From contig NZ_RSCL01000014.1 of assembly GCF_003991905.1 (NCBI RefSeq), positions 62,001 to 126,000 of the forward strand: 64,000 nucleotides of DNA, given 5' to 3'. Source of the stretch: Dulcicalothrix desertica PCC 7102 (lineage in GTDB: Bacteria; Cyanobacteriota; Cyanobacteriia; Cyanobacteriales; Nostocaceae). The notes beneath the pieces were generated by a model. It searched no databases. It was not told the origin of the DNA and was given only the letters and a program-made list of their open reading frames with translations. Position 1 is the stretch's first letter; each line of letters opens with the position of its first letter. Of the stretch, positions 1-64,000 are shown piece after piece. The position numbers and the translations under genes were made by a program.

Positions 1-108
1 TTGGCGCCAGCGCGAAGAGAAGTTCTGGTAACATTCGGCACTTATAGAAGCATTACGCCGTATAAACCAGGCGGTGGTTATGGATGCGAAAATGATAATT
101 AGATGCAT
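1..108 (-). CDS. M56-family membrane peptidase, N-terminal fragment
   Basis: Only the first 36 codons are inside the window; the gene runs off the left edge. The visible peptide starts MHLIIIFASITTAWFIRR and continues to a serine/arginine/tryptophan stretch, which resembles the first membrane helix of BlaR1/MecR1-like M56 peptidases. The ATG lies two bases after the stop codon of the BlaI-type repressor, so the two are almost certainly co-transcribed. The BlaI-M56 pair is a well-known sensor-protease and repressor arrangement. The zinc motif is outside the window, so the family call rests on context and the first helix. Confidence 0.6.
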   Translation of the reverse strand, partial: MHLIIIFASITTAWFIRRNASISAECYQNFSSRWRQ

Positions 109-110
109 TA

Positions 111-530
111 TTACTGTTCCTCTCTTGCTTGACGTGCATCTTGTATACGTTTTGCGATTGCTTGAATTTGTGTGCTAGCCGCTTCATCAAGACTATCAGC
201 AAAAGCGGCAATTATGTCAGGATTTCCAATCGCAAGAAATCGCTGTAGCTGTTCGTGGGCTTTAATGACTTCAGCTTGTTGTTTTGTTAGTAATGGGCGC
301 CAAAAAAATGCACGTCCACACTTATCACACTTTAACCAACCTTTATCAGTCAGACGACGTAGCACTGTAGTAACAGAAGTATACGCTAATTCGCGGTTGG
401 GATCAGCTAAGATACGGTCGTGTACATCTTTAACTGTAACGCTACCGAGTTCCCACACGATATTTAATATTTCTGCTTCCAGTGGACCTACTGAAAGTTG
501 TTTCGGACGGTAATCAGGTAAAGGCGCCAT
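111..530 (-). CDS. BlaI/MecI/CopY-family transcriptional repressor
   Basis: A 139-residue protein with the winged-helix pattern of penicillinase repressors: LEAEILNIVWELGSVTVKDV near residue 17, then AYTSVTTVLRRLTDKGWL as the recognition region, and a helical C-terminal dimerisation part. Family members bind short TACA/TGTA dyads and are inactivated by cleavage by a partner M56 protease; the next gene downstream looks like that partner. A Cys-x-x-Cys (CDKC, about residue 69) could bind metal or respond to redox, but this is inference. I found no convincing TACA/TGTA operator upstream. The ATG at 530 is the only good start. Confidence 0.85.
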   Translation of the reverse strand: MAPLPDYRPKQLSVGPLEAEILNIVWELGSVTVKDVHDRILADPNRELAYTSVTTVLRRLTDKGWLKCDKCGRAFFWRPLLTKQQAEVIKAHEQLQRFLAIGNPDIIAAFADSLDEAASTQIQAIAKRIQDARQAREEQ

Positions 531-570
531 ATTTTAGATTTTCCCTTTGGGAGATAAATGAATTATTATA

Positions 571-728
571 CGGGCAGGTTCAGGAAAATTGTAATTGTAA
601 ACCCGATGCTTGTACGGGCGGGTTTTAGAAATTGTAAGTTTAAACCCGATGCTTGTACGGGCGGGTTTCGGAAATTGTAATTTTAAACCCGATGCTTGTA
701 CGGGCGGGTTTCGGAAATTGTAAGTTTA
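571..728. repeat. Tandem array of a 43-bp repeat, about 3.7 copies
   Basis: The core ACCCGATGCTTGTACGGGCG starts at 601, 644 and 687, giving an exact 43-bp period, with a degenerate partial unit before the first copy. Each unit contains AAACCCG and CGGGTTT arms that can form a hairpin, and a reverse-oriented remnant (GAACCCGCCCC) follows near 744. There are no unique spacers, so this is not a CRISPR array. It fills much of the gap between the BlaI-type gene and comB. From 729 to 1014 I see no other gene. Confidence 0.85.
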
Positions 729-1014
729 CTTCTAGGATATTTGTGAACCCGCCCCTACTATACATACTATTTGAAATTACTATTATCACAGGCAAATTCA
801 CTTCAAACGTATACGTTGTATATTTCTGCTTTTTTTAGGTTACATGTCAAGACGCTCAAAAGTAGTTGCACAAAGCACAACCAAAGATAAGGTAGATACA
901 TGAGTAATATCCTACATCACAAAATTGTTTGGGTATTGCGCTTCTAGTTGGTTACATTAACTAGCTTAGAATGTAATTTCGGTAGTAAATATAAAATTCA
1001 GGTGTATATAGAGC

Positions 1015-1752
1015 GTGAAGCTATTTGTTTATCACACTCCAGAGCAGGCTCCTAACAGCGAAGTACCCGAATGTGCTATCGCGGTTGACGTATTGAGGGC
1101 TACAAGCACTATAGCCACAGTTTTAGCCGCTGGAGGCGAAGCCGTGCAAGTCTTTAGTGACTTAGATAAATTAATGCAGGAAAGCGAAAACTGGCAGCCC
1201 GAAAAACGGCTACGTGCTGGAGAAAGGGGTGGCGGCAAAGTTCCTGGTTTTGAGCTAGGTAATTCTCCTCTCGATTGTACTCCAGAGCTAGTACAAGGAA
1301 GGCGTTTATTTATTAGCACTACTAATGGCACTCGAACTTTACAAAGAATTCAGGATGCAGGTGCAGTCATTGCAGCAGCACTAATTAATCGTGCTGCTGT
1401 AGTAAAGTATGTTGTGGACAAGGAACCTCTTAATGTTTGGATAGTTGGTTCAGGTTGGGAAGGTAGTTACTCTCTTGAAGATACGGTCTGTGCAGGCGCC
1501 ATTGCCCACAGTGTTTGTCAGCACACGAACTTACCTATTGAAAAACTAGCTGGTAACGATGAAATGATTAGTGCAATTTCGTTGTATTCGCAGTGGGAGA
1601 AAAACCTATTAGGGTTGTTGCATCATGCTAGTCATGGACAGCGTTTACTGCGTCTTGATTGTCATGAAGATTTAAAATACTGTTCTCAAACAGATATTTT
1701 AGATGTTTTACCGATGCAGCAAGAGCCAGGAGTTTTGAAAAAATACGGATAA
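1015..1752 (+). CDS. comB: ComB-family 2-phosphosulfolactate phosphatase-like protein
   Basis: A 245-residue protein starting at a GTG codon and reading [13 protein letters not shown], the usual N-terminus of cyanobacterial ComB proteins. Family landmarks include [33 protein letters not shown] and [10 protein letters not shown]. ComB hydrolyses 2-phosphosulfolactate to sulfolactate in coenzyme M synthesis in methanogens. Cyanobacteria do not make coenzyme M, so the physiological substrate here is unknown. It appears to be a single gene, ended by a hairpin it shares with the convergent neighbour. No internal disruption is visible and the length is normal. Confidence 0.85.
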
Positions 1753-1774
1753 TTCTTTATAAATAAGTAACATA

Positions 1775-1806
1775 AGATTCCCAACTTACAATTAAATTGG
1801 GAATCT
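1775..1806. terminator. Bidirectional terminator hairpin between convergent genes
   Basis: A perfect 10-bp inverted repeat, AGATTCCCAA and TTGGGAATCT with a 12-base loop, lies between the comB stop codon and the stop codon of the convergent downstream gene. A/T-rich flanks make it suitable in both directions. Confidence 0.7.
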
Positions 1807-1808
1807 AA

Positions 1809-2255
1809 TTACTTAGAATTAAGCAAGTTTTTTTTGAACAAATAAGGATACAAACCAATAGTTAGACTTATTAGCCCCACAGCAACCCACCATCTATCAT
1901 CAAGACTTACATCTAAAGACGTTTTATTTCTAGAACGTGCAAAATTATCAATTCGGGATGCTGCTTCCTGCTGTTCTTTTTTGTCGCTAAAATTACTATT
2001 CGGAGAAAAAGGAATATCTCCACTATTTGTTACCAAAACAACTTGGTAAGTATACGAATCAATATCACGTCCACCAACTATCATGCGGGCGCCTTTTAAC
2101 TCGTCAACAGGAATATTCTTTTCTTCAGACCACAAAAACCCGTGCTTAACAATCTGACATTTATCATCTTTAACGAATGCACGCTCACAAGTCAACGTAC
2201 TAACTTTTGCAAAAGTTAATAAACAAATTCCCAGCGCAATAAAATAAACTCTCAC
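1809..2255 (-). CDS. Hypothetical protein with two membrane segments
   Basis: A 148-residue protein from a GTG start. The first 20 residues (MRVYFIALGICLLTFAKVST) form a hydrophobic signal or anchor. A helix near residues 123-140 (WWVAVGLISLTIGLYPYLF) is followed by a short basic tail, so the middle part is probably periplasmic or lumenal. The middle holds two cysteines (C23, C33) that could form a disulfide, then a polar stretch rich in E, Q and K. I do not recognise a family. The composition resembles small lineage-restricted cyanobacterial membrane proteins. It is convergent with comB. Confidence 0.6.
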   Translation of the reverse strand: MRVYFIALGICLLTFAKVSTLTCERAFVKDDKCQIVKHGFLWSEEKNIPVDELKGARMIVGGRDIDSYTYQVVLVTNSGDIPFSPNSNFSDKKEQQEAASRIDNFARSRNKTSLDVSLDDRWWVAVGLISLTIGLYPYLFKKNLLNSK

Positions 2256-2391
2256 CGAACCCCCGTATCAAGAAGATGGAACAAGATATGATTAGACCAT
2301 CTGCTTTATAAAGAGGAAACGATAATTAGATACTTATACAAAAAGAAAATAAAAATTTTAAACTTAATTAACCATCTTGTAGAATTGGCAT

Positions 2392-2457
2392 CTTGTGGAG
2401 CGGGCATCCCTGCCCGCCTATTATATTTAGAACGGGCAAGGATGCCCATTCCACAAG
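2392..2457. repeat. Dispersed palindromic repeat, GGGCAAGGATGCCC family
   Basis: A 66-bp imperfect palindrome running from CTTGTGGAGCGGGCATCC to its near reverse complement GGATGCCCATTCCACAAG. The same core recurs near 7581 and 15825. It lies just downstream of the Lin0512 gene, so it may also act as a terminator hairpin. The rest of the 2256-2488 gap shows nothing else. Confidence 0.75.
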
Positions 2458-2488
2458 AGGAATTTGAATATTTTTTATTAAGAAGTTG

Positions 2489-2851
2489 CTAATTATCTAT
2501 ATAAACTGTAACAGCAGCTACAGCAATTAACATCTCATCATTTTTATCGTTCAGCACAGGAATCGCGCGACCCTGAACAACCATACCACCATTTTCAACA
2601 CGAAGTGATTTCTGACCAAATGGCAGCACAGCTAGAACTTCCTCTTCACGAACTTGTTCAGGATAAGGGACAGCAACTTGTACTTCGACTATCATTTGAT
2701 TTGGGTCAGTTAAACCAGCCACATCCCAAACACCAAGTAAAGCATTATTAGCTATTGCGTTCCGTACTGCTCTAGCTGCTGCAACCGTTGGTTCCTGACC
2801 ATGCTGGTCAATTCCCATTCCCATTTCAATAATAAAACACTTACGAGCCAA
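2489..2851 (-). CDS. Lin0512-family protein
   Basis: A 120-residue protein that matches the Lin0512 family along its whole length. Visible landmarks are FIIEMGMGIDQHGQ at the N-terminus, PTVAAARAVRNAI, VEVQVAVPYPEQV and the C-terminal block ENGGMVVQGRAIP. The function of the family is unknown. It is a compact alpha/beta protein without membrane segments and is common in cyanobacteria and Firmicutes. The start is a TTG codon, chosen because GGAG lies five bases upstream and the homologous N-terminus reads MARK. It stands alone. Confidence 0.85.
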   Translation of the reverse strand: MARKCFIIEMGMGIDQHGQEPTVAAARAVRNAIANNALLGVWDVAGLTDPNQMIVEVQVAVPYPEQVREEEVLAVLPFGQKSLRVENGGMVVQGRAIPVLNDKNDEMLIAVAAVTVYIDN

Positions 2852-2955
2852 AATTTCTCCTTATGTAATTTTATTTATTTATTCAAAATCGCGCTTGAAA
2901 GCTGATTTGATTTCAGGCGCCTGTAATTGTAACAATATCGTAAGTTTTGCAACAA

Positions 2956-3528
2956 ATGAAAATTAAGATAAAATACATTTCCCCAAAAAAGTTACTAATT
3001 CTGGCAGCAATGTTAGGTGGAGGATTTGTACTTATTGTATACATATGTCTTTTCACCAGTATAGTACGAGCGCGCATAATTAAAGTAGAAAATTTAGTCC
3101 AACAATTTGAATCCCAGTTTCAAAACGACCCATTAAAAGCATTGCAGCAGAGTTCAACACAAAAAGTTGTAATCCAACAAGGTTTCAATAATGACAAAGG
3201 ACTAGATGCAAACTGTTTAACATGGGATTCTGAACCAGTTGTAAGCGGTTGGACACAAGACTCAAAAGACTCAGATTTTTTTGTTGATTACTACGTACCA
3301 CCCTCTTCCAAAGCAATAATTTGTACAACACCTATATTTGCAGGCGCCTTAACTGCTGACGCTGATAAACCTTTTTCATACGAAGTGTATCGAACTGAAT
3401 ACGGTTTAAGAGTTCGCGTTATTATTGGTGTTTCTGAGGTTCGAGAACTTTGCCAAATGCTAGCTCTTGACGGTAATTGTCTCAATTCATTCCTACAACA
3501 ACAAGCAATTGTACGCTATAAACATTAA
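2956..3528 (+). CDS. Hypothetical membrane-anchored protein
   Basis: About 190 residues. The ATG at 2956 is preferred over an in-frame TTG three codons upstream, because neither has a clear ribosome site and ATG is the stronger codon. A basic N-terminus (KIKIKYISPKK) is followed by one transmembrane helix near residues 13-35 and a soluble extracytoplasmic domain. That domain has four cysteines spaced as two pairs (near residues 104 and 123, then 165 and 174), which suggests disulfides. I recognise no family. Its stop codon overlaps the stop of the convergent coaT gene by four bases. Confidence 0.55.
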   Translation: MKIKIKYISPKKLLILAAMLGGGFVLIVYICLFTSIVRARIIKVENLVQQFESQFQNDPLKALQQSSTQKVVIQQGFNNDKGLDANCLTWDSEPVVSGWTQDSKDSDFFVDYYVPPSSKAIICTTPIFAGALTADADKPFSYEVYRTEYGLRVRVIIGVSEVRELCQMLALDGNCLNSFLQQQAIVRYKH

Positions 3529-5459
3529 TACCTATTCTTTAGTAATCTTAAACCGCTCAAAGTTACAAGCACCGTAGAACCTTCATGTCCAACCACACCC
3601 AAAGGTAAAGTAATACCAACAGTAAAATTAATCACTAACAGTATTAAAACAGACGTAAGTGCAAACGCAATATTTTGTTTAACTACCCGTATTGCGCGTT
3701 TACCCAACTCAATAGCTACAACCAATTTTTCTAACTTATCAGCCATTAAAACAATATCAGCAGTTTCTAGAGCAACATCACTACCTGCCACACCCATTGC
3801 AATACCAACTGATGCGGTAGCAAGTGCAGGAGCATCATTAATTCCATCACCCACCATTGCGACTGTTTTATATTCTCGTTGTAAACGTTTAATCACGGTT
3901 ACTTTATCTTCTGGTAACAGTGAGGCATATACTTCTTTTATACCTAGTTGTTGGGCTACATATAAAGCAGTACGTTGATTATCGCCTGTTAACATAATAA
4001 TTTCGGCGCCTAATTTTCTCAAACGTTTTACCATCATTGCTGCTTCTGTACGAACAGTATCAGCAACTGCAATAATTCCTAGTATTTTATTATTCTCTGC
4101 TACCCAAACAGTTGTTTTACCTTCTGTTTCAAGACGTGTACTATGCTTTATCAAGTCTTGGTTTATAAGTATGTTCGTTTGTGCTTGTATAAAACTTACT
4201 GTTCCTACTAAAACCTGTTTCGAGTTAACTTCACCACTAATTCCAAAACCTGTATGTGCCACCACATTTGTTGCAGATGGAATATCTAATTGATTATCAT
4301 TCCCATAGGCAACAATCGCTTGTCCAATTGGATGTTCTGAAAAACTTTCAACCGCAGCAGTTGATATCAATAAACTATTTACATCACATCCATCTGAGGG
4401 TATAATTTGCTCAACACATGGTTGCCCGGTAGTAAGAGTACCTGTTTTATCGAAAGCTACTGCTCTGACCTTGCCAACCATTTCTAAATCGGCGCCACTT
4501 TTAAACAAGATACCGTTGCGGGCGCCTGTGGCAATACCAGATAATAAAGCAGGCATAATCGCTGCCATCAAAGCACACGGAGAAGCAACCACTAAAAAAA
4601 TCAGCGCGCGATAAATAGTAGTTTCCCAATCTTGATTTAAAAATATTGACGGTACAGTCATCAATACTATTCCACATAGAATAATTACTTTCGCATAAGC
4701 GCGCTCGAACCGTTCGATAAATAACTGTGAAGCAGGCGCCTCATTTTGTGCCTGTTCAACCAAACGAATTACTCTTTGAATTAAACTACTTTCAGGTGGT
4801 TGGTGTACTTCAACGACTAATGCACCAGTCCCATTAATTGTGCCAGCATAAACATAATCTCCAATAGTTTTTTCTACTGGCAAAGATTCACCCGTAATTG
4901 AAGCCTCATTTAAATTACTAGCACCCTCAGTTATTACACTGTCAGTAGGAATTAATTCACCTGGTTTAACTAATAACTTATCGCCAATTTGTAACTGATT
5001 TATAGCAATCTGTTTTTCTTGACCACGCGAAATAACTCTTGCGGTATCAGGGGTCAAACGCATCAAACTAGTGATAGCGCGGTTAGTTCGCTGTATTGCG
5101 TAACCTTCCAAGGCGCCACTAATAGCAAAAATTAAAATTAGCACAGCACCATCAACAATTAAATGATACTCACGCTTCCATAAACCTAAAGCAGCGGCGC
5201 CGAGTGCAGCAACAATCATTAATAAATCGACATCAAACTCTTTCTCTTCAACAAGCGTCGTCAAACCTTCCTTCGCACTCGCATATCCACCCACCACATA
5301 AGCAACAGGCAACAGTAACAAAGCTAACCCAACCCAACCAAAGTAAAGCCCAAGCCAACCGAAGAGTAAAAATAAAGCACAACAACCCGCAGCTATAGCA
5401 TCTGGGTGTTCGGTAGTAAGGCGCCTAATATCAAGTTTTGTAAAAGAATAGCTAGTCAT
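3525..5459 (-). CDS. coaT: P1B-4-type heavy-metal ATPase, cobalt exporter CoaT
   Basis: A 644-residue P1B ATPase that exports a transition metal across the plasma membrane. Key motifs are TGES (189-192), the membrane metal site SPC (293-295), phosphorylation site DKTGT (337-341), HP (376-377), GDGIND (537-542) and HEGST in the last membrane region (625-629). The SPC plus HEG[GS]T combination is the P1B-4 signature, associated with cobalt and sometimes zinc or iron. There is no N-terminal CxxC metal-binding domain, as expected for this subgroup. The MerR-type promoter directly upstream and a CoaR-like regulator about 1 kb away match the cobalt-resistance pair of Synechocystis. I favour cobalt, but specificity is inferred. 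Confidence 0.88.
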   Translation of the reverse strand: MTSYSFTKLDIRRLTTEHPDAIAAGCCALFLLFGWLGLYFGWVGLALLLLPVAYVVGGYASAKEGLTTLVEEKEFDVDLLMIVAALGAAALGLWKREYHLIVDGAVLILIFAISGALEGYAIQRTNRAITSLMRLTPDTARVISRGQEKQIAINQLQIGDKLLVKPGELIPTDSVITEGASNLNEASITGESLPVEKTIGDYVYAGTINGTGALVVEVHQPPESSLIQRVIRLVEQAQNEAPASQLFIERFERAYAKVIILCGIVLMTVPSIFLNQDWETTIYRALIFLVVASPCALMAAIMPALLSGIATGARNGILFKSGADLEMVGKVRAVAFDKTGTLTTGQPCVEQIIPSDGCDVNSLLISTAAVESFSEHPIGQAIVAYGNDNQLDIPSATNVVAHTGFGISGEVNSKQVLVGTVSFIQAQTNILINQDLIKHSTRLETEGKTTVWVAENNKILGIIAVADTVRTEAAMMVKRLRKLGAEIIMLTGDNQRTALYVAQQLGIKEVYASLLPEDKVTVIKRLQREYKTVAMVGDGINDAPALATASVGIAMGVAGSDVALETADIVLMADKLEKLVVAIELGKRAIRVVKQNIAFALTSVLILLVINFTVGITLPLGVVGHEGSTVLVTLSGLRLLKNRY

Positions 5460-5488
5460 AGTGGTAGAGCAATATATTTCCTCTACTC

Positions 5489-5520
5489 ACCCTAAACCTT
5501 GACATTAATGTCAATGTCAA
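5489..5520 (-). promoter_or_regulatory. MerR-type promoter/operator of coaT
   Basis: On the minus strand a -35 element TTGACA (5515-5520) and a -10-like TAGGGT (5489-5494) are separated by 20 bp, and that spacer contains the perfect 16-bp palindrome TTGACATTAATGTCAA (5499-5514). An over-long spacer holding a dyad is the hallmark of promoters activated by MerR-family proteins through DNA untwisting. It lies about 30 bp upstream of the coaT start. CoaR is the obvious ligand. Confidence 0.8.
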
Positions 5521-5573
5521 GCTATAAGACTAAAAATATTTTTTTTCCTGTACGGAAAGAGGTAAAACCTGGA

Positions 5574-6077
5574 CTATTGTTGGTTAAGCATTTCCATAAT
5601 TGTTGACAAAGGCAAAAATAGTTCTAATGGAGTATTTTGTAAATTAATAAAGCCATAACGTTCGTAGTAAGTTCTGGCAAATTCATCTTTAGCATCAACA
5701 AACAATCCAATACCTCCAGCATTTTCCGCTACAACCAAAGCACGCTTCATCGCTTCAAACAAAAGAGCTTGCCCAATTCCTTGTCGCTGATTAGTTGTAT
5801 TAACAGCCAGTCTTGCAAGTTTTACACCAGGTATGATTCGAGGAAATTTTTTGTTAAACCGCAATGGAAGCTTTTCTACACGAATTTCACATAAGGTTAA
5901 AGTGAAGAAACCAATTATTTTTTCAGGCTGGTTTGTATCAACAAAGACAAAAGTACGAGAAATTCCTTTTTGAATATGCTGCCTTGCAGTCTGCTTAAGG
6001 AATCTATTGAGAGCTTCACTACCGCAATCAAAACCATCGCGGTCATGATGTTTATCTAGCAGTTCAAATAGTCTCAC
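5574..6077 (-). CDS. GNAT acetyltransferase toxin (TacT/AtaT-like)
   Basis: A 167-residue single-domain GNAT protein. It has the acetyl-CoA pyrophosphate loop RQGIGQALL (98-106), preceded by the family block KLARLAVN, and a C-terminal FARTYYERYGF (133-143) carrying the tyrosine expected to act as general acid. Proteins of this type acetylate the amino group of charged tRNAs and stop translation. The pairing with a DUF1778 ribbon-helix-helix antitoxin whose 3' end overlaps this gene by 14 bases is the standard type II arrangement. The start is GTG. Length and motifs look intact, so the toxin is probably functional; the tRNA target is not predictable. Confidence 0.85.
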   Translation of the reverse strand: MRLFELLDKHHDRDGFDCGSEALNRFLKQTARQHIQKGISRTFVFVDTNQPEKIIGFFTLTLCEIRVEKLPLRFNKKFPRIIPGVKLARLAVNTTNQRQGIGQALLFEAMKRALVVAENAGGIGLFVDAKDEFARTYYERYGFINLQNTPLELFLPLSTIMEMLNQQ

Positions 6078-6351
6078 CTAACAATTCCTGATGTTTTTTC
6101 ATCGCAGCTTTTAGATAGGCATTAGGTGGTGGGGGATTCTCAATTAAACTAAACACTTTATCAGCATCACTCTCAGATAAAACTATAACTCGTTCATCTT
6201 CAATGATTTTTTTTGCTTCTTTCAATGCTGCCTGAACAATAAACTGATTTAATGTTGCGCCAGATAATTCTGCTGCTTCTTGTAATGTTTCTTGAACGCT
6301 TGCAGGAATTCTAGCTGTCACCCGAACTGTATTTTCGTGACTGTTAAGCAT
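6064..6351 (-). CDS. DUF1778 ribbon-helix-helix antitoxin
   Basis: A 95-residue protein with an N-terminal ribbon-helix-helix: TVRVTARIPASVQETLQEAA gives the DNA-contacting strand and first helix, and ATLNQFIVQAALKEA the second. The C-terminal part, containing the ESDADKVFSLIENPPPPN segment typical of DUF1778 proteins, is the toxin-neutralising tail. It should bind the GNAT toxin and repress the operon. It is the first gene of the pair and precedes the toxin with a 14-base overlap. A dyad sits just upstream of its ATG. Confidence 0.85.
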   Translation of the reverse strand: MLNSHENTVRVTARIPASVQETLQEAAELSGATLNQFIVQAALKEAKKIIEDERVIVLSESDADKVFSLIENPPPPNAYLKAAMKKHQELLGETI

Positions 6352-6361
6352 ATCTAATTAA

Positions 6362-6390
6362 ACTTAATGTTATATTATTATAACTTAATG
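6362..6390 (-). promoter_or_regulatory. Candidate toxin-antitoxin operator
   Basis: Just upstream of the antitoxin ATG is the inverted repeat GTTATA-TTAT-TATAAC (6369-6384), flanked by two direct copies of ACTTAATG (6362-6369 and 6383-6390). Ribbon-helix-helix antitoxins usually bind such short repeated AT-rich sites over their own promoter. The assignment is by position and symmetry only. Confidence 0.5.
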
Positions 6391-6459
6391 GTGCCATTTT
6401 GTCACCGCATTGAGTAACCTAAAAGAAAGTCTTCTGTCGCACAATGGTAAATATCTTCA

Positions 6460-7569
6460 ATGCGCGCGCAAAACCTAACAATCAAAGAATTAACAGAACA
6501 AGTAGGTGGTGGTTTAACTCCAAGGATGGTGAGACACTATCATAAACTAGGACTACTACCAGAAGCATCAAGGTCTCAAAGCAACTACCGCTTATATACA
6601 GACAAAGACATTCAGCACTTGCGACGAATTGTAGCTCTCAAATCGCAAGGTTTCCAACTTGACCATATCCGTAAATTACTACAACCTGGCTCAAAGGCGC
6701 CGTTGAGTAACGATTTACTTGATAGTTTACAGCAACAATATCGGTCGGTGACTTCTCAATTAACTAGACTGCGGCAAACAGCAAGCGCACTCGAAGGTTT
6801 ATTGGGAAGAGACCATTCGTGTTTAAACGTGCAAGCTGAAGCGTTGTTACAATTACAACAGTTAGAAGTCGAAACCAGCGCTTCTTTGGAACAACTTGAA
6901 CAACTTTGGGATGGTTTGGATGCAGCAACCGATGCTCATCCTGAAGACTTTAATGAATCATTACAGCAGTTATTAACATTACCTAAACGTTCACAAATAG
7001 AAGTAGATTTATTATCAAAGTTAGTAATAGCTTCTGGTGATGTTAGTTTAGTAGATTTTGTGCGCTGGAGTCAAAACGCAATTGCATCAAGTCGCAGTGC
7101 TATTCAAAATAAATGTGACATTATTGTCGATGTTCCAGCGGTTTGTGCTGGTATTGACCAAGCTCGTGCTGCACATCTAGGCGCCAAAATTACCACTCTT
7201 ATCGATGACCCTCATATTACCAGTTTTACAGAAGTTGAACAAGAATACTGTTCTTCAATAAAATGGCAAGAAAAATTAGAGCAGGTAACTCCAGGATGCA
7301 TATTAGTAGTAGGTTATGCACCTTCGGTTTTAATATCTATTTGTAATTTAGTCGAGAAAAAGCAACTTCAACCAGCTTTAATTATTGGAATGCCAATTGG
7401 TTTTAGTCATGCACCTGCTGCAAAACGGCGCCTGATACGTTCTGGTGTTGAGTATATTACAACTGTAGGTATAAATGGTGGTGGATTACTCGCAGCAGTA
7501 GCATTAAATGCGCTAATTGAATCATTAATTGAGAAGCCTCATTGCCATTGTTATTTAAAAAATATGTAG
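6460..7569 (+). CDS. coaR: CoaR, MerR-type cobalt regulator with CbiC-like domain
   Basis: A 369-residue two-part regulator. Residues 5-75 form a MerR winged helix (LTPRMVRHYHKLGLLP, NYRLYTDKDIQHLRRI), followed by a coiled dimerisation helix. Residues about 190-350 resemble precorrin-8 methylmutase (CbiC/CobH), with DIIVDVPAVCAGI and ALIIGMPIGFSHAPAAKRRL. The protein ends with a Cys-His-Cys motif (362-364), as reported for Synechocystis CoaR, where it takes part in cobalt sensing. It should activate coaT when cobalt or a corrinoid-pathway intermediate is present. It diverges from coaT as in Synechocystis, but here a toxin-antitoxin pair lies between them. Confidence 0.9.
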   Translation: MRAQNLTIKELTEQVGGGLTPRMVRHYHKLGLLPEASRSQSNYRLYTDKDIQHLRRIVALKSQGFQLDHIRKLLQPGSKAPLSNDLLDSLQQQYRSVTSQLTRLRQTASALEGLLGRDHSCLNVQAEALLQLQQLEVETSASLEQLEQLWDGLDAATDAHPEDFNESLQQLLTLPKRSQIEVDLLSKLVIASGDVSLVDFVRWSQNAIASSRSAIQNKCDIIVDVPAVCAGIDQARAAHLGAKITTLIDDPHITSFTEVEQEYCSSIKWQEKLEQVTPGCILVVGYAPSVLISICNLVEKKQLQPALIIGMPIGFSHAPAAKRRLIRSGVEYITTVGINGGGLLAAVALNALIESLIEKPHCHCYLKNM

Positions 7570-7580
7570 GTTGGTTTTAG

Positions 7581-7608
7581 GGACGGGCAAGGATGCCCAT
7601 CCCACAAG
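7581..7608. repeat. Dispersed repeat, GGGCAAGGATGCCC family
   Basis: Half-element ACGGGCAAGGATGCCCATCC with a CACAAG end, matching the copies near 2440 and 15825. It lies 11 bases after the coaR stop codon and may act as its terminator. Confidence 0.7.
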
Positions 7609-7617
7609 AATAATTAA

Positions 7618-7787
7618 TTACAAGCTTTTAGCTGATAGATTAGTAGGGATATAATTTGCACCTTTTTTGTTAGCGCAAAACCCTACTTGGTCATATATTT
7701 GACCAGGTTGAAGGAGTTTAAGCCAATCAGGAGGGGTAACAATAATTTTTTACCTACTGCAACAAAGTTACCGTAACCTCCTGATAT
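7618..7787 (-). pseudogene. Possible decayed gene remnant
   Basis: On the minus strand, SGGYGNFVAVGKK (about 7787-7745) reads well and then runs into a stop. The reading can be continued in another frame as TPPDWLKLLQPGQIYDQVGF and further to a TAA at 7618. The composition (glycines, PPDW, aromatic residues) looks protein-like in both pieces, which suggests one frameshifted C-terminal fragment with no intact start. I do not recognise the family, and a chance reading cannot be excluded. Confidence 0.3.
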
Positions 7788-7828
7788 TAAAATTTAAGAG
7801 CGTGTTTGTCTCTTCTCTCTACTCTATG

Positions 7829-7907
7829 GAGACGCTCCGGAATCGCGTCTCTACGTGTATTTATGGTAAATATAAATACACTTATTGCACAGGCAGGATG
7901 CCTGTGC
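7829..7907. repeat. Two dispersed palindromes in the coaR-XRE gap
   Basis: GGAGACGCTCCGGAATCGCGTCTC (7828-7851) belongs to the GAGACGC palindrome family seen at 8621, 34996, 41081 and 45847. GCACAGGCAGGATGCCTGTGC (7887-7907) belongs to a second family also present at 43902. The remainder of the 7570-7938 gap holds the repeat and decayed reading listed separately and nothing else I can support. Confidence 0.7.
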
Positions 7908-7938
7908 CACATTTCATCAAGTTAATAACAATGGAGTA

Positions 7939-8247
7939 TTAATATAAAACAGGGGTATCAGTTAAAGCCATAGTTTGTGGTACCTGGCTGATTTGAGTAT
8001 CAGGAAAACGCCTTGGTCTTCCAGGTTTGCGCTTATGTCGTTGATTAATAGATTTTTCGCTTGCTTGTGCTAATTCTTCGGGGGTGCATTTAAATAGTCG
8101 CAGCGCGTCTAAATATTTCTTTGGTGTCATGGTCGGTTCAGTACGTCCAGCTTCCCAGTTACGAACACTGGTTTCGCTAATTGCAAGTCTGAAGGCTACT
8201 TCCGCGCGACTTAACCCTGCCCGTTCTCTCAGAACTTGCATATCCAT
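7939..8247 (-). CDS. XRE-family HTH regulator with C-terminal AT-hook
   Basis: A 102-residue protein. Residues 1-60 are a Cro/C1-type helix-turn-helix (LRERAGLSRAEVAFRLAISE, then SVRNWEAGRTEPTM as recognition helix and turn, and YLDALRLFKCTPEELAQA). It is followed by a basic segment KRKPGRPRRFP (72-82) that fits the AT-hook consensus around GRP. It would bind a dyad through the HTH domain and the minor groove of AT-rich DNA through the hook. The target is unknown and no operon partner is present. The start ATG at 8247 has no clear ribosome site; a second Met is two codons later. Confidence 0.8.
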   Translation of the reverse strand: MDMQVLRERAGLSRAEVAFRLAISETSVRNWEAGRTEPTMTPKKYLDALRLFKCTPEELAQASEKSINQRHKRKPGRPRRFPDTQISQVPQTMALTDTPVLY

Positions 8248-8657
8248 ATCTCAATGCTCCCTTTTACTAATATAGATTTACCTGATTCCACTTTCAATTC
8301 AAGGCTATTTGCTTCTAGCCATTTTAAGTATCTATCCAATTAGGATAGTTACATAGTTTATTTTTAAGCTTCGGATATTACCTAGCTTAAATTTCAAACT
8401 ATATATGTCGATATGTACCAGTAGATGCTCTATAAAAGACAACTACCTAGCAATATCGCAAATTGAAATATTGTATCTATCTATATTATTTCATATCCGA
8501 TTACACTGTCATCTGCAAACAGTGTAAGTAATTTCTTACTCATGGAATATATAAAAAGTAATGCACTTGTGTGAAGATGTAATTAAGGAATTAACTACAT
8601 CCCTACACAAGCGTAACAGCAGAGACGCAATTAATTGCGTCTCTACACTCAGCACTT
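8248..8657. other. Gene-free gap with hemB terminator palindrome
   Basis: AT-rich and without a plausible coding sequence. It ends with the perfect 24-bp palindrome AGAGACGC-AATTAATT-GCGTCTCT (8621-8644), 13 bases after the hemB stop codon, probably its terminator and one of the GAGACGC repeat family. The promoter of the XRE gene must lie at the other end, but no clear -35/-10 pair stands out. Confidence 0.6.
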
Positions 8658-9638
8658 TTAACTTAACCAGCGTGCTGCATCTTTGGCGTGATAAGTCAAT
8701 ATTAAGTCTGCACCTGCTCGTTTGAAGCTGGTTAGCGTTTCCATGACTACGCGCTGTTCGTCAATCCAACCGTTTAAGGCAGCAGCTTTTACCATCGCGT
8801 ACTCACCTGAGACGTTGTATGCTGCAACTGGTAAATTACTGGCTTCTTTTACACGCCAAATAATATCCATATATGCTAATGCTGGTTTTACCATTAGCAT
8901 ATCGGCGCCTTCGGCAACGTCGAGTTCAATTTCTTTTATCGCTTCACGTGCGTTACCTGGGTCCATTTGATATGTTCTACGGTCGCCAAATTGTGGCGCC
9001 GACTCAGCAGCATCACGGAATGGCCCATAATATGCTGATGCGTATTTTGCTGCGTAGGACAAAATTGGTATGTCTTGGAAACCAGCTTCGTCTAAACCAC
9101 TACGTATAGCTTGCACAAATCCATCCATCATTCCCGAAGGAGCTATAATGTCGGCGCCAGCTTTGGCTTGAGATACGGCTGTTTTCTTTAATAACTCTAA
9201 TGTAGGGTCATTAAGCACTCTTCCGCTTAAGTCACCAACTTGCAAGTAACCACAGTGACCATGATTTGTATACTCGCACAAACAAGTATCAGCAATGACT
9301 ATCAAATCGGGAACTGCTGATTTGACGGCTGTTGCAGCTTTTTGTATCATGCCACAATCATGCCATGCCCCTGTAGCATCAACATCTTTATCTGCTGGAA
9401 TACCAAACAATATAATTGCTGGAATTCCTAAATCATAAACTTCTTTAGCTTCCTCTACGATTTTATCAACCGATAGCTGATAGACTCCTGGCATCGATTT
9501 AACTTCTTTCGCTATTCCTTCACCCGGTACAGCAAATAATGGGTAAATTAAATCGTTTGTCGTTAAAACTGTTTCACGTACCATTCGGCGTAATTGAGAA
9601 TGAGTACGCAAACGACGAGGGCGATGGATGGGAAACAT
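8658..9638 (-). CDS. hemB: Porphobilinogen synthase (delta-aminolevulinate dehydratase)
   Basis: A 326-residue, full-length HemB. It condenses two 5-aminolevulinate molecules to porphobilinogen, the shared step to heme, chlorophyll and bilins, in the cytoplasm. The two Schiff-base lysines lie in the [17 protein letters not shown] and [11 protein letters not shown] blocks. The metal loop [16 protein letters not shown] retains all three cysteines of the zinc-binding form, unlike the aspartate-rich loop of the plant magnesium enzyme. The start ATG gives the normal [12 protein letters not shown]-terminus. It is monocistronic, with a hairpin just downstream. Confidence 0.97.
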
Positions 9639-10007
9639 AAATTTTTATTAATGCTCAAAGCGCGAATAATGGACAATCAACAAAGCGTCACAAACTGAGG
9701 GCTGAATTGTACGTCAGTAAAGCAAACTAGCATGTAGCGCTTAACTGTCTTCTGCCCTATTGCTGCTCCGGTAGTGTGGGGCAATTTTGTATTTTACATT
9801 GCTTACTCGATTCATCTAATTAAAGCAAGCAAAAGTTATTAAAAGTTCTCAAAACACGCCCCTGTCCTCAAAGCTAGAAACCTGGTTTCTTTGTCGATAG
9901 CATGTAATAAATATGACGATTTGGCGTAGAAACCAGGTTTCTTTTGGCAAGGAGCAATAATTATTGCTAGACGGATGTTACAATTGAGACATAGCAAAAC
10001 GTGAATT
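9639..10007. repeat. Gap with paired AGAAACC-GGTTTCT repeats
   Basis: AGAAACCTGGTTTCT (9876-9890) and AGAAACCAGGTTTCT (9928-9942) are two 15-bp palindromes 37 bp apart. They can each form a short hairpin or pair with one another as a long one. The family recurs at 18594 and 22713. They lie downstream of the DUF4870 gene. No coding sequence is visible in the gap, which must also hold the hemB promoter. Confidence 0.7.
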
Positions 10008-10349
10008 TTAGACTAAACGGAATATTAGAGGATAACGGAAAGGTTTGCGTGTGTCGCTCAAAACATAGAATAAAGCCAAGATTGTTAAACCCCAATGTAC
10101 TATAAAACCGATACCCGCTACAGGGACTAGTACACCCCAAGTCATAGATATCAATATTCCCAGAATAAATCCATAGACCCAGACATTGATATGAAAGTTG
10201 ATAGATTCTTTGGCATTTTCTCTAACAACTGGGTCATTGGTGACAAAAGTGATAAAAATAGGCACGGCAACAGAAACTAATGTCATGCTAAAGAAAATGG
10301 CGCCGTGACACAGTGCTGATAGTACCTTTCGTTTATCAGTGTCGTACAT
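10008..10349 (-). CDS. DUF4870-family small membrane protein
   Basis: About 113 residues. A short N-terminus (MYDTDKRKVLSALCH) is followed by three hydrophobic segments, with the typical DUF4870 central block RENAKESINFHINVWVYGF. These are integral membrane proteins related to TIC20-like folds; their role in bacteria is unknown. I place the start at the ATG ending at 10349, because GAGGGAG lies six bases upstream. An in-frame GTG five codons earlier has a Shine-Dalgarno sequence too close to it. It sits alone between hemB and prfC. Confidence 0.8.
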   Translation of the reverse strand: MYDTDKRKVLSALCHGAIFFSMTLVSVAVPIFITFVTNDPVVRENAKESINFHINVWVYGFILGILISMTWGVLVPVAGIGFIVHWGLTILALFYVLSDTRKPFRYPLIFRLV

Positions 10350-19412: not shown

Positions 19413-19414
19413 AA

Positions 19415-56102: not shown

Positions 56103-57050
56103 TCATGCTGCTATCTGCGTAGCTTTTATTAATTCCGCTAACCCTTCACGAATAGTAACTTTCGGCAGCCATCCCAATGCTGTCAGTGCTGTGTTATCAG
56201 CGAGACTGTGGCGAATATCTCCAGGTCGAGGTTCTTTGTGAATGGGTTGCAAGTTTTGACCAGTTAAGTCATTGAGTAAATGGGCAATGTCAAGTAAAGA
56301 GGTTGCTTTACCTCTACCAACATTGAAAGTTCTGCCTGCTGCATCGGGGTGTTCCATCACTAAAATATTTGCTGCTACCACATCCGAAACGTGAACAAAA
56401 TCCCGACTTTGTTGACCATCACCGAATATAACGGGAGCAATTCCTTGAAAAATGCGATCGCAAAATATAGATATCACTCCTGAATAAGGGCTAGACGGGT
56501 CTTGGCGCCGACCGAATACATTAAAATAGCGTAAGCATACAAATTCCACTCCAAAAGTCCTGTTATAACAGTGACCCATAAGTTCAGATGCTAGCTTATC
56601 TACTCCATAAGGAGTAATCGGGTTAGTTGGCATCGACTCCTTCTTAGGAAGAGTTGGTTCATCGCCATAAACCGCAGCACTTCCTGCAAAGACAACACGA
56701 CGAACACTGTGCTTGCGTGCTGCTTCTAAAACATTGAGAGTGGCGGCATAGTTGATTTTATCTGTTCCTATGGGGTCTTTAACAGACTTTGGAACACTAG
56801 CTATAGCTGCTTCGTGAAAAACATATTCGCATCCCTTCATCGCAATCTCAACAGTTGCTATGTCAGTAATATCACCAAGTAATACCTCTATTTTTTGAGA
56901 AGGTATAGCAGCAATATTTTCTAATTTTCCCGTGGAAAGATTATCTAAAATTCGGACTTTATAATCTTTTTTGACTAAAGTTTCTGCAATGTGTGAGCCA
57001 ATAAAGCCACATCCACCAGTCACTAGGATTGTTTTTTTATCTTTAGCCAT
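56103..57050 (-). CDS. NAD-dependent sugar-nucleotide epimerase/dehydratase
   Basis: A 315-residue extended short-chain dehydrogenase. GGCGFIGSHIAETLVKKDY binds NAD, and the catalytic YxxxK is ITPYGVDKLASELMGHCYNR, with serine in FAGSAAVYGDEPTLPK. It is of the GalE/WbpP type (UDP-glucose or UDP-GlcNAc 4-epimerase). It supplies a sugar nucleotide for the polymer. The only HIP1 octamer seen in the window, GCGATCGC (56454-56461), is inside it. Confidence 0.92.
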   Translation of the reverse strand: MAKDKKTILVTGGCGFIGSHIAETLVKKDYKVRILDNLSTGKLENIAAIPSQKIEVLLGDITDIATVEIAMKGCEYVFHEAAIASVPKSVKDPIGTDKINYAATLNVLEAARKHSVRRVVFAGSAAVYGDEPTLPKKESMPTNPITPYGVDKLASELMGHCYNRTFGVEFVCLRYFNVFGRRQDPSSPYSGVISIFCDRIFQGIAPVIFGDGQQSRDFVHVSDVVAANILVMEHPDAAGRTFNVGRGKATSLLDIAHLLNDLTGQNLQPIHKEPRPGDIRHSLADNTALTALGWLPKVTIREGLAELIKATQIAA

Positions 57051-60940: not shown

Positions 60941-62044
60941 TTACGCCGCAAACAATAAACTCAAATACTCGGAAACTGAACGTTCGACAGAAAAATCCTG
61001 TGCCCTCTTCATCAATGTTTCTCTACTTACAGTATCATCAAGTACAGCGAGCATCGCCTCAGAAAGTGCGACAGCATCTTGAACTGGCACTAAATAACCG
61101 TATTTACCTTCGTCTAAAATTTCGTCTGGTCCGCTAGGGCAATTAGTAGAAACCACAGAACAACCACAAGCCATTGCTTCAATAATTACAGTTGGTAATC
61201 CTTCCCAGCGAGATGAAAGTACAAATGCTTTGGCATTGTACATATACGCATAAGGGTTGTCAACAAACCCAGGTAAGGAAATATCTTCTGCAATACCTAG
61301 TGCATTAATACTTAATTCTAACTCTGCTCTTAATTCACCTTCACCTAAAATAATCAGTTTAGCTTGTCTTTGTTTTCTTAACAGTGCAAAGGCATGAATT
61401 AGATTTTGAAAATCTTTCTGTTCAGATAAACGCCCTACAGCTACAAATACTGGTGGTTCTTCTTGCCTAAACCAAGGATGTTCTACATGCATTTGTGCTT
61501 TCTTTAAGATTTCATCATCAACTATTGGATTGTGGATAACATGAACTTTTCCTTTTGGAAAAGCAAGTACAGACTCCAAATCTTCAGCTACACCTTTAGA
61601 AACTCCGACAATGGCGCCTGCACGAGGATAAAGAGTATGCACAAGCAGCGAAAATACTCTATTTAACAGTGATTTTGAATTTTTGATAGAGGCAGATAAA
61701 TTGTTTTGTTCTACCAATACCAATTTAGTGTTTGTACCAGAAATCTCTTTTGCTAAGGCAGCTGCCACATTTGCATATTCTATATGTGAAATTAGAACGT
61801 CTGGTTTGTGATGTTTTAAATACTGAGCTAAAGGTAAGATAGCTTTTAATACTCTGCCTGCACCTAAATCTACAATACGTACTTCCTTCGGTACTTGGTT
61901 TAAATAGGGACCCATTGCATTAGCTAAAACTAAATCTAAAGTAAAATCTCTTCCTGACATACCTTTGAAAAGCTTAATTGCAGCTTTTTCAGCACCACCA
62001 CCAAATAAACTGGGAAGAAAACAGGCAATTTTTTTTGTCTTCAT
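60941..62044 (-). CDS. GT4-family glycosyltransferase
   Basis: About 367 residues from the ATG at 62044 (MKTKKIACFLPSLFGGGAEK); a GTG four codons earlier is possible. It has GGGAEKAAIKLFKGM in the acceptor half, and VFVAVGRLSEQKDFQNLIHA and SSRWEGLPTVIIEAMACGCS in the donor half, followed by VVSTNCPSGPDEILDEGKYG. This is the common GlcNAc/galactose transferase type of capsule clusters. No anomalies. Confidence 0.9.
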   Translation of the reverse strand: MKTKKIACFLPSLFGGGAEKAAIKLFKGMSGRDFTLDLVLANAMGPYLNQVPKEVRIVDLGAGRVLKAILPLAQYLKHHKPDVLISHIEYANVAAALAKEISGTNTKLVLVEQNNLSASIKNSKSLLNRVFSLLVHTLYPRAGAIVGVSKGVAEDLESVLAFPKGKVHVIHNPIVDDEILKKAQMHVEHPWFRQEEPPVFVAVGRLSEQKDFQNLIHAFALLRKQRQAKLIILGEGELRAELELSINALGIAEDISLPGFVDNPYAYMYNAKAFVLSSRWEGLPTVIIEAMACGCSVVSTNCPSGPDEILDEGKYGYLVPVQDAVALSEAMLAVLDDTVSRETLMKRAQDFSVERSVSEYLSLLFAA

Positions 62045-62089
62045 AGCTTTACTCACAAGATATTACTAAACTTTTATTTATTGAAAATA

Positions 62090-63241
62090 TTATGAAATTA
62101 TGTCTTTGAGGTTATATTTATATTTTTCAAGCAAAACTAATTTAAATAAATTTTCCCATTCACTTAATATTTTTTCTATACTAAAGCGTTCCGTTACCTC
62201 TGGTGCGTAAGTGCTTAAACGTTGTCTAATTGTTTCATCAGACATTAAATGATCCATAGTTTTTGCCAACGATAAGACATCTTCGCTCGGTACTAAAATT
62301 CCATCTATACCATCACGAATAATTTCTCTGGGTCCGCTGTGACAATCAGTTGAAATTACAGGTAATCCACAAGCCATTGCTTCACCAAGAGCCATTGGAA
62401 AAGCCTCATGTCGGGAAGACATGACAAATAATTTTGCTCTCTTTAAAATTGCAAATGGATTGTTTATAACCCCTACAAAAACTACTTTACCAGATAAACC
62501 TAGATTTTCTTTCATTTCTTCCAACTCGTCATATAGTTCTCCTTTTCCTAATATCAATAGCTGCCAGTCCGGATGAAGATGAGCAATTTTAGCAAAAGCA
62601 GATAATAGGATATCAAATCCTTTTTGAGGTAGTAATCTTCCCATTGCTACAACCCATTTTTTTCCTGGGTCAACGTCTCTATTCAGAAAATTAATAATTT
62701 CTTTGTTGTCTTGTTTGTTTGGCAATATAAAAGGATTATAAATGACTGCCCTTTTACTTTTTGCTAGCCAATCGAAAGCACAATCTACTCCCTTACTTAC
62801 GCTCACAACTCGATCTGCATAAGGATAAGAAAGACGTCGTAGCAATTCCCATATTCTTCCGTAAGAAAACATTTTTGGGTCTGAGTGTTCCGTTACAAAC
62901 ACAGGTAATTTACTATGGAACAAAGAAACTATTGTGAGGATATTTGTTGATGTTAAGTGTGAAAGAACTATATCTGGTTTAGTAGAAATTATAGCTTGTC
63001 TTAACTTGATTAAACGGTGCAAATTGTTGTAAAGAGCTTGAAAGATATTTATAGAATCACTCATAATCCCTAAAGCGACCCTAATTACACCCTCTGGCAA
63101 GCTGTAAAAATCTGTCTCTCTCCCGTAAAGCGTGATTACTGTGACTTTATGTCCCCTGTCAATTAATCCTTTTGCAATTAATACTACAACTCTTTCTGCT
63201 CCACCACTATATAGCGCTGATACTACTAATGTAATATTCAT
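62090..63241 (-). CDS. GT4-family glycosyltransferase
   Basis: A 383-residue protein starting MNITLVVSALYSGGAERVVV. The donor half has VVAMGRLLPQKGFDILLSAF, SSRHEAFPMALGEAMACGLP and VISTDCHSGPREIIRDGIDG. It resembles the preceding glycosyltransferase (STDCHSGPREI against STNCPSGPDEI), suggesting common descent. It overlaps the flippase gene by four bases (ATGA), so they are translationally coupled. Confidence 0.9.
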   Translation of the reverse strand: MNITLVVSALYSGGAERVVVLIAKGLIDRGHKVTVITLYGRETDFYSLPEGVIRVALGIMSDSINIFQALYNNLHRLIKLRQAIISTKPDIVLSHLTSTNILTIVSLFHSKLPVFVTEHSDPKMFSYGRIWELLRRLSYPYADRVVSVSKGVDCAFDWLAKSKRAVIYNPFILPNKQDNKEIINFLNRDVDPGKKWVVAMGRLLPQKGFDILLSAFAKIAHLHPDWQLLILGKGELYDELEEMKENLGLSGKVVFVGVINNPFAILKRAKLFVMSSRHEAFPMALGEAMACGLPVISTDCHSGPREIIRDGIDGILVPSEDVLSLAKTMDHLMSDETIRQRLSTYAPEVTERFSIEKILSEWENLFKLVLLEKYKYNLKDIIS

Positions 63242-64000
63242 AAATTTACCTCACTTTTACTATTACTAGTGATTTCTTTCAAATACTTAAAAGAGAATAA
63301 GAGTAAAAAAATAAATGACACTAAATAAACAATACTAGTTGATAGAGCAATACCTTGAATACCGAAGAAATGCATTAATGTATAATTACCTATCACATTA
63401 ACTATTAAGTTTAAAGCAGAACCCCACATTAAAATACGATTTTTTTTGATAGAAATTATTAATTGAACTAGAAAAACTGCTCCAACATAGAAAGGAATTT
63501 GCAAGGCATAACAATTCTGAATTTGGGATACTAATTGAGTATCTTCCGGTGTAAATGAACCTCTCTGTAAAAGTAATTTTACTATTGTCTCAGAAGCCAA
63601 TAATAATAATGCCGTAAATGGCAAAGTCACAAGAAATATTAACCTTAGATAATGCTTTAGTGTGTGTAAAACACCTTGCCAATCATGGTGAGCAACCATT
63701 TTAGAAAAATAGGGAGTTACTGCGGTATTTAGCGCTGTGGTAGTTAAGAATATTGGCAATACAACCACCTTATCCGCATAATTCAGTGCTGCTACACTTC
63801 CTGGAGCTAGCATTGCTGCCATTGACTGGTCTACTATACCAGTACTACACATTAAAAAAGCAGCAGTAACAGATGGTAAATATTGAGCAACTACTTGACG
63901 CAAGTTTTTACTAAAACCATGCCATTTTGGTAGTACCGAAATCCCCTGCCTTTTAAGTTCTAGCCCCAAAATTATGATCTCTAATGTCGTACCGCCAAGT
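63238..64000 (-). CDS. MurJ/MviN-type lipid-linked glycan flippase, C-terminal part
   Basis: The frame is open to the window edge, so only the last 254 codons are present. Seven or so membrane helices are visible. MurJ-like blocks are LGGTTLEIIILGLELKRQG at the edge, YLPSVTAAFLMCSTGIVDQS with the MurJ central helix, VAALNYADKVVVLPIFLTTT and LLQRGSFTPEDTQLVSQIQN. The last is characteristic of MviN proteins. In a polysaccharide cluster it probably acts as Wzx, moving lipid-linked repeat units, rather than lipid II. It begins outside the window. Confidence 0.87.
   Translation of the reverse strand, partial: LGGTTLEIIILGLELKRQGISVLPKWHGFSKNLRQVVAQYLPSVTAAFLMCSTGIVDQSMAAMLAPGSVAALNYADKVVVLPIFLTTTALNTAVTPYFSKMVAHHDWQGVLHTLKHYLRLIFLVTLPFTALLLLASETIVKLLLQRGSFTPEDTQLVSQIQNCYALQIPFYVGAVFLVQLIISIKKNRILMWGSALNLIVNVIGNYTLMHFFGIQGIALSTSIVYLVSFIFLLLFSFKYLKEITSNSKSEVNL

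Follow-up and report, generated by a model that had tools for sequence, protein, structure and literature searches.

A Calothrix clade with GGCGCC as its highly iterated palindrome and the possible link with an orphan GRCGYC-type methyltransferase

The purpose of HIP1 (GCGATCGC), the highly iterated palindrome (HIP) of most cyanobacteria, is an old open question, and lineages with another palindrome in its place are natural experiments. Here, we analyzed a 64-kb stretch of Dulcicalothrix desertica PCC 7102 (contig NZ_RSCL01000014.1, positions 62,001 to 126,000; hereafter the window), in which GGCGCC is highly iterated, as well as the rest of this genome and its relatives. An initial annotation of the window had claimed that GGCGCC replaces HIP1, marks the lineage and may imply a cognate methylase. 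Like HIP1, GGCGCC is a GC-rich palindrome tied to orphan methyltransferases (MTases) and found at comparable density, but its sequence is different, with neither GATC nor CGATCG inside, and HIP1 is at control level in PCC 7102.

The closest described system is that of Calothrix PCC 7103 and D253. According to Elhai 2015 (PMC4390886), HIP1 occurs at 300–2,700 per Mb in most cyanobacteria outside group C1, whereas GGCGCC is the alternative HIP of these two strains, in which HIP1 is low; the GGCGCC data covered the genome of one strain and 19,301 nt from a second. The same paper describes the loss of the CGATCG MTase and the gain of two GRCGYC MTases, the second of which was possibly critical, and it proposes a model of repair directed by methylC following G, with a set point for density of about one site per 1,000 nt. 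Exceptional HIPs were regarded there as sporadic and not persistent, and the GRCGYC site as depleted in most MTase carriers. Among the papers listed in our search for later literature on GGCGCC in cyanobacteria, only this one was found relevant; it already contains the core claim for PCC 7103, namely GGCGCC as an alternative HIP, low HIP1 and a methylase link. The system analyzed here has the same palindrome, low HIP1 and low GACGTC, and PCC 7103 is a congener of PCC 7102. It differs from the published account in that the trait is found in all seven genus genomes examined, that one MTase is enough and that this MTase is the apparent remainder of a HindVP-type system.

The other related systems are the BsaHI/HindVP (GRCGYC) restriction-modification systems. 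In the M.BsaHI paper (PMC2413257), M.BsaHI is the archetype of the GRCGYC enzymes and methylates the central C; HindVP is putative but is grouped with BsaHI, which cuts GRCGYC. The genus shares the MTase family and the recognition-segment pattern with these systems, and most relatives examined also have an adjacent nuclease. In contrast, the nuclease is found in none of the seven genus genomes and the site is hugely enriched, whereas it is depleted in most carriers according to Elhai 2015 (PMC4390886). What is new here is the presence of the palindrome in all seven genus genomes examined, an MTase in all seven genomes without a HindVP-like nuclease (with a relic in one), the sufficiency of one copy in two genomes, and the central C-to-T loss together with upkeep beyond protein need.

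Abundance, spread and placement of GGCGCC

The window contains 80 GGCGCC sites by exact scan (Table 1), whereas 3.1 are expected from its base composition (38.3% GC), which agrees with the initial annotation that about 80 sites lie far above chance. Five of the seven positions cited there are exact (523, 4491, 8904, 13722 and 42457), while 20499 and 28322 are each 1 nt off (20498 and 28323); the single HIP1 placed at 56454 was recovered as well. In the whole draft genome (G000; 11.42 Mb, 109 contigs), for which a count had been called for, there are 19,393 GGCGCC, that is, one per 589 bases or 1,698 per Mb, and a single copy of the reversed control CCGCGG. It should be noted that CCGCGG itself is avoided in several genomes, so the ratio of observed to expected counts (O/E) is a fairer measure than the control count.

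Table 1 Palindromes located in the 64-kb window
Feature	Position	Strand	First bases	Basis
GGCGCC, palindromic, 80 copies	1..64000	.	3, 296, 523, 1495, 2088, 2916, 3343, 4005, 4491, 4521, 4735, 5112, 5196, 5420, 6696, 7180, 7427, 8904, 8995, 9153, 10299, 10578, 10673, 12042, 12395, 12678, 13075, 13521, 13722, 14360, 15288, 15330, 17039, 17686, 18263, 18707, 19044, 19383, 19458, 19839, 20045, 20498, 20578, 20639, 20831, 21915, 22825, 24424, 26086, 26736, 27711, 28152, 28323, 28479, 30246, 30843, 33353, 33703, 33989, 35155, 35823, 35973, 37004, 39294, 40988, 41036, 41368, 42457, 43090, 43238, 43826, 48684, 49205, 50449, 52695, 52999, 55172, 56504, 59565, 61613	exact scan
HIP1 (GCGATCGC), sole copy in window	56454..56461	.		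exact scan

A 484-kb sample of G000 (C14:22001-306000 and ten 20-kb stretches, window included) holds 807 sites, 20.9 times the first-order Markov expectation and the first rank among 4,096 hexamers; once the sites themselves were masked before model building, O/E was 25.7. With a maximal-order Markov model, 40.9 sites are expected in the window and O/E is only 1.96, because the counts of GGCGC and GCGCC are inflated by the GGCGCC sites themselves. Thus, the count is far above expectation in first-order models and near it only in a model that absorbs the motif. Other GC-only palindromes in the same sample are mildly enriched (CGCGCG 3.9, GCGCGC 2.5) or depleted (GGGCCC, CCCGGG and GCCGGC, 0.08–0.10), and the equal enrichment of all GC-rich palindromes that would have spoken against the initial annotation was not seen.

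The genus set comprised seven genomes, G000 and G001 (metagenome-assembled genome (MAG) C42_A2020_038), G002 (Calothrix PCC 7716), G003 (NIES-4105), G004 (Calothrix PCC 7103), G005 (MAG FI2-JRJ7) and G006 (HK-06), and was compared with 53 other sampled relatives (60 in all). GGCGCC numbers 7,475–20,380 per genome in all seven and 2–2,493 in the others, whereas HIP1 numbers 31–163 in the genus and 134–10,167 outside it, consistent with a replacement. In G000, HIP1 is not enriched (58 copies vs 62 for its reversed control). In samples of about 0.48 Mb of G000 and 0.06–0.36 Mb of each other member, GGCGCC had an O/E of 14–26 and a density of 1,080–1,762 per Mb in all seven genomes, as against an O/E of 0.1–3.7 in five sampled genomes outside the genus, so that the palindrome does mark the lineage. 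A second small sample of G004 gave an O/E of 31.6 and 2,137 per Mb, and contigs of G002, G003 and G004 other than the largest showed a similar density (103 sites in 53 kb, ∼1,935 per Mb). A GC-rich palindrome on the order of at least 1,000 per Mb, low HIP1 and a methyltransferase predicted by homology to recognise the sequence, three features of a HIP in Elhai's sense, are present in the genus.

Among 388 genomes drawn from the order, the three genus members had ∼1,545–1,711 GGCGCC per Mb, and just two of the remaining genomes, G094 (∼2,497 per Mb) and G150 (∼1,075 per Mb), reached 1,000. G094 has 54% GC, and its GGCGCC O/E of 3.7 is exceeded by that of AGCGCC (6.4). The comparison with CCGCGG suggested further GGCGCC-rich lineages (G043, G201, G072, G095, G224, G169, G027 and G380). 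Sampling of four of them (O/E 0.95 in G043, 1.6 in G201, 0.5 in G169 and 0.1 in G027) traced the signal to GC content and the avoidance of CCGCGG.

The placement of sites was examined in 284 contiguous kb of G000 using a greedy list of open reading frames (ORFs) of at least 100 aa. Of 490 sites, 435 lay inside ORFs (1,924 per Mb), in the phases Gly-Ala (230), Ala-Pro (126) and xGG-CGC-Cxx (79), and 55 lay outside (951 per Mb), as expected from the earlier statement that they occur in genes, gaps and every reading frame. In the 484-kb sample the flanks are weakly biased (G at −1 avoided, 0.095 vs 0.192), which gives no longer consensus of the kind that was looked for. Spacing is near random (coefficient of variation 0.99; gaps of >2,000 nt, 3.5% vs 3.2% expected), with a mild deficit below 100 nt. 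The doubled density within ORFs, the 230 of 435 coding sites in Gly-Ala phase and the mild enrichment of CGCGCG and GCGCGC might point to a compositional accident, caused by amino-acid or codon preference (Gly-Ala, Ala-Pro) or by GC-rich palindromes in general. However, the sites occupy all codon phases and the space between ORFs, GGGCCC, CCCGGG, GCCGGC and most hexamers one base off are depleted, and the GGC, GCC and GCG codons are less conserved outside the site than inside it in G000 vs G002 (see below). We therefore regard such an accident as very improbable.

Several other iterated or avoided sequences were observed. CGCGCG (O/E 4.4–7.3) and GCGCGC (2.7–3.4) are the next most enriched palindromes in samples of G000, G001, G002 and G004. 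The G000 sample is strongly depleted of GCATGC (1 observed vs 108 expected), AGATCT (4 vs 100), ACGCGT (4 vs 67), ACCGGT (3 vs 54) and AGGCCT (6 vs 75), which suggests past or present restriction there. G094 (L248-L251) carries an MTase of the candidate family described below and no nuclease match, and its raised AGCGCC (O/E 6.4) is perhaps another iterated motif. In the sample of G169 (L260-L263), which has no HIP1, GCCGGC ranks first among palindromes (79 in 80 kb, O/E 4.4) and is possibly an RCCGGY-type alternative HIP.

A methyltransferase shared by the genus and its missing nuclease

Genus proteins with the C5-family domain PF00145 were collected and clustered; the methyltransferase search was limited to this family. 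Two C5-MTase families occur in all seven genomes, the L052 type and the L085 type. The L052-type MTases have pairwise identities of 80–99%, the PCC 7103 copy matches PF00145 with an E-value of 5.9e-66, and the PCQ and ENV motifs are intact in the seven genus-wide copies. Their dN/dS is 0.05–0.17 over 21 pairs, and the L052-type MTase is therefore under purifying selection. At E ≤ 1e-60, the family was found in 106 of the 388 genomes of the order, three of them from the genus. In six of seven genus genomes the gene is flanked by a RuBisCO-like gene on one side and a gene with an SLH domain on the other, neighbours that the HK-06 locus does not show.

As stated in the M.BsaHI paper (PMC2413257), GRCGYC enzymes carry R and G/A eleven and nine residues upstream of the TL motif. 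Counted from the TL threonine, position −12 is R and position −10 is G or A in 12 of 13 collected genus members of the family; the remaining member, L095, is truncated. We take 'eleven and nine' to mean residues in between, following the numbering of M.HaeIII; by a literal count, I or V would stand at −9. On this reading of the spacing, the predicted recognition segment fits the GRCGYC group. A GRCGYC-type C5-MTase without nuclease is present in all seven genomes, which supports the cognate methylase suggested in the initial annotation, but none strictly specific for GGCGCC appeared in the PF00145 search, which left m4C enzymes out.

By the same search, G000 and G001 each have a single intact GRCGYC-type MTase, and G006 has one plus fragments. 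A second copy is not required, because G000 and G001 with one copy still reach GGCGCC O/E values of 25.7 and 14.2. Further GRCGYC-type MTases, 58–62% identical to the genus-wide one, are present in G004 (L058, on C10), G002 (L055), G003 (L066 and L054) and G005 (L034), partly on smaller contigs; that of G004 agrees with the two MTases reported for PCC 7103 (PMC4390886).

Other C5-MTases were rejected as cognate enzymes. The L085 type, although genus-wide, is common in the order (119 of 388 genomes), and 53 carriers outside the genus but in the same taxonomic family have 0–283 GGCGCC each; our guess, from Elhai's text (PMC4390886), is that it is of the DmtD (RCCGGY) type. The L086 type (six of seven genomes), the L038, L044 and L060 types (five of seven each) and the remaining C5-MTases are not genus-wide. 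No MTases related to the candidate were found in viral contigs.

In 21 of 27 collected L052-type loci outside the genus, BsaHI-type nuclease motifs adjoin the MTase, and the nuclease scanned from one of these loci is RE_HindVP in Pfam (E = 1e-156). In contrast, a whole-genome search (E ≤ 1e-5) detected a HindVP-like nuclease in none of the seven genus genomes, several of which are drafts where an absent gene may lie in a gap. Directly before the MTase of G001, where the nuclease would be expected, there is a 20-codon stretch, 80% identical to the nuclease C-terminus (E = 6e-5 and 6e-4 in two small searches), which looks like a relic of the lost nuclease. The loci were also compared over 6.9 kb each. 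Those of six named genus members hold 7–15 GGCGCC, no HIP1 and, apart from the relic, no nuclease. Three other strains named Calothrix (C. elsteri, C. rhizosoleniae and CSU_2_0) have 3–6 HIP1, not a single GGCGCC and, next to the MTase, a nuclease match that is only partial in C. elsteri; we took these three as outside the genus from their MTase identity of 65–70% and their lack of GGCGCC.

A broader correlation between nuclease and GGCGCC content was computed but not relied on. Among 103 MTase carriers outside the genus, the median GGCGCC per Mb was 2.3 with a nuclease signal (n = 71) and 28.3 without it (n = 32; P = 6e-7; collapsed by genus, 43 vs 13, P = 0.0014). However, GC content was uncontrolled, the nuclease was sought genome-wide in 73 carriers and within ∼1.5–2 kb of the MTase in 30, many matches were fragments or had stops, and a log-ratio version used the flawed CCGCGG control. 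In addition, 39 genomes of the same taxonomic family without an L052-type MTase were also low (median 4.4 per Mb).

The genus also lacks the L030-type C5-MTase (none of seven), which is widespread in relatives (51 of 53). From this spread and Elhai's account (PMC4390886), it is presumed to be the CGATCG MTase behind HIP1, and its absence is a candidate for an extra factor in the build-up of GGCGCC.

Upkeep and decay of the sites

Comparison of G000 with G002 showed that GGCGCC was identical at 219 of 236 sites, and other all-GC hexamers at 377 of 502 (P = 2e-9). At fourfold sites in coding phase, GCC was kept in 118 of 119 cases inside GGCGCC and in 258 of 306 elsewhere (P = 1e-6), and synonymous positions of GCG (53/54 vs 309/377) and GGC (113/120 vs 226/273) behaved similarly. 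As these codons are better kept inside the site than elsewhere, upkeep acts on DNA and not only on protein. In G004, the outer C was kept in 172 of 177 cases (349 of 441 elsewhere), whereas the central C was kept less well (156/185 vs 260/341 for GGC, P = 0.03, and 71/88 vs 410/538 for GCG, where the change is read from the opposite strand, P = 0.41).

A three-genome alignment of G000, G002 and G004 (98 kb) contained 208 ancestral sites, in which central C-to-T changes numbered 9, 6 and 40, respectively, and other changes 6, 3 and 17. The G004 rate (40/416, 9.6%) was 2.5 times that at other CpG cytosines (3.9%; P = 8e-7). When G005 was added, 45 sites were common to all four genomes and 34 had been lost in single lineages (18 in G004, 12 in G005, 3 in G000 and 1 in G002), 25 of them by central C-to-T (13, 9, 2 and 1, respectively). 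Of 16 cases with the G004 pattern that G005 could decide, 13 were losses in G004, and G005 shared GGTGCC in none. The main loss route of GGCGCC is thus central C-to-T, at the base that M.BsaHI methylates, which we count as an indirect sign of methylation. GGTGCC/GGCACC, the product of this change, has an O/E of 1.95 in G004 and 1.6 in G006 vs 0.82–1.04 in the remaining genomes, a pattern that faster decay of GGCGCC in G004 and G006 would give; G005 loses sites too, though GGTGCC is not raised in its sample (1.03).

These data bear on whether GGCGCC itself serves as a signal, be it in recombination, repair, replication, uptake or otherwise, with each site selected and methylation secondary. Conservation beyond protein need and the similar density off the largest contigs (∼1,935 per Mb) would agree with it. 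On the other hand, selection on ∼19,000 sites would be a heavy load (an argument rather than a test), the sites are spaced almost randomly and twice as densely within ORFs as outside them, and sites are lost in every lineage examined, mostly by central C-to-T. Such a function is, in our opinion, unlikely.

The sequences related to GGCGCC bear on Elhai's published model, in which repair directed by methylC after G converts near-misses to GGCGCC up to a set density, after gain of a second GRCGYC MTase. The model predicts the order GGCGCC > GGCGTC/GACGCC > GACGTC, which was observed in G000 (O/E 25.7, 0.38 and 0.13) and is the order of G-methylC content; it also predicts methylation of the central C, the target of M.BsaHI. 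Seven types of one-off neighbours are depleted (mean O/E 0.46–0.60 per sample), as the model would have it, with the exception of GGTGCC/GGCACC (0.8–2.1). However, G000 and G001 are highly enriched with one intact MTase, long gaps are not short in number and recent gains are almost nil. The view of exceptional HIPs as sporadic and non-persistent can be revisited, because the trait is in all seven genomes even though their GRCGYC-type MTases are up to 20% different at the protein level; so can a set point of about one per 1,000 nt, given sample densities of up to 1,762 per Mb and long gaps at the frequency expected by chance. We give this model, as published, a low likelihood. Vsr-type repair was also rejected as the maker of sites: no Vsr (PF03852) was found in the 60 relatives, genus included, though a Vsr-like enzyme of another family may exist.

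A proposed history of nuclease loss, methylation and palindrome build-up

On balance, it appears somewhat probable that GGCGCC is the HIP of one Calothrix clade owing to the history of an orphan GRCGYC-type MTase, with methylation-linked upkeep after nuclease loss. This account builds on the abundance of GGCGCC, its presence in all seven genus genomes, an MTase without nuclease, the short relic in one genome, nucleotide-level conservation and C-to-T as the main loss. In this history, the ancestor would have carried a GRCGYC restriction-modification system of BsaHI/HindVP type and would then have lost the nuclease, while the MTase, maintained by purifying selection, would have remained on its own at one chromosomal location and would methylate the central C of GGCGCC. 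The same lineage would be without the presumed CGATCG C5-MTase behind HIP1. GGCGCC, with a methylated C after G on both strands, may then have accumulated to the ∼1,080–1,762 sites per Mb of the genus samples, probably as an old build-up in the genus ancestor. Weak selection or methyl-biased repair would still maintain its sites as nucleotide sequence, and the sites would decay through deamination of methylated C to T, fast in PCC 7103. We infer that the L052-type MTase methylates GGCGCC in the cell, and also that methylation caused the accumulation.

Several observations weigh against this account. Among the 103 non-genus carriers of the L052-type MTase, 32 show no nuclease, and the three sampled give GGCGCC O/E values of 0.5 (G169), 0.1 (G027) and 3.7 (G094, 54% GC). 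A lone MTase is therefore insufficient, and something else in the genus matters. The link with HIP1 is loose, since G026 without the L030-type MTase has 5,328 HIP1 and G053 with it only 206. The nuclease relic spans 20 codons in one genome only. Central C-to-T is not above other CpG cytosines in G000 (9/416, P = 0.86) or G002 (6/416, P = 0.38), and the excess is confined to G004. Clear gains were 3 (6 ambiguous) vs 63 losses in the three-genome alignment and none vs 34 losses in the four-genome alignment (ambiguous: seven two-of-four and two single cases), so no running ratchet is visible. Nor are long gaps scarce, as they should be under a repair-range set point. Another enzyme, for example of the m4C type, could mark GGCGCC, as the search was limited to the C5 family.

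A bolder version, which is possible but which we hold only tentatively, is that the genus rewrote a genome-wide methylation landmark: nuclease loss would have left an orphan MTase that took over the role of HIP1 and the CGATCG MTase, and HIP1 would have given way to ∼19,000 GGCGCC per genome, protected at the DNA level and leaking mainly by deamination of methylated C. In any case, with seven genus genomes, a single candidate enzyme whose target base is predicted, contrasting Calothrix-named strains with a nuclease match, and PCC 7103, which loses GGCGCC faster than the two compared relatives (G000 and G002), the link between methylation and palindrome build-up is open to test.

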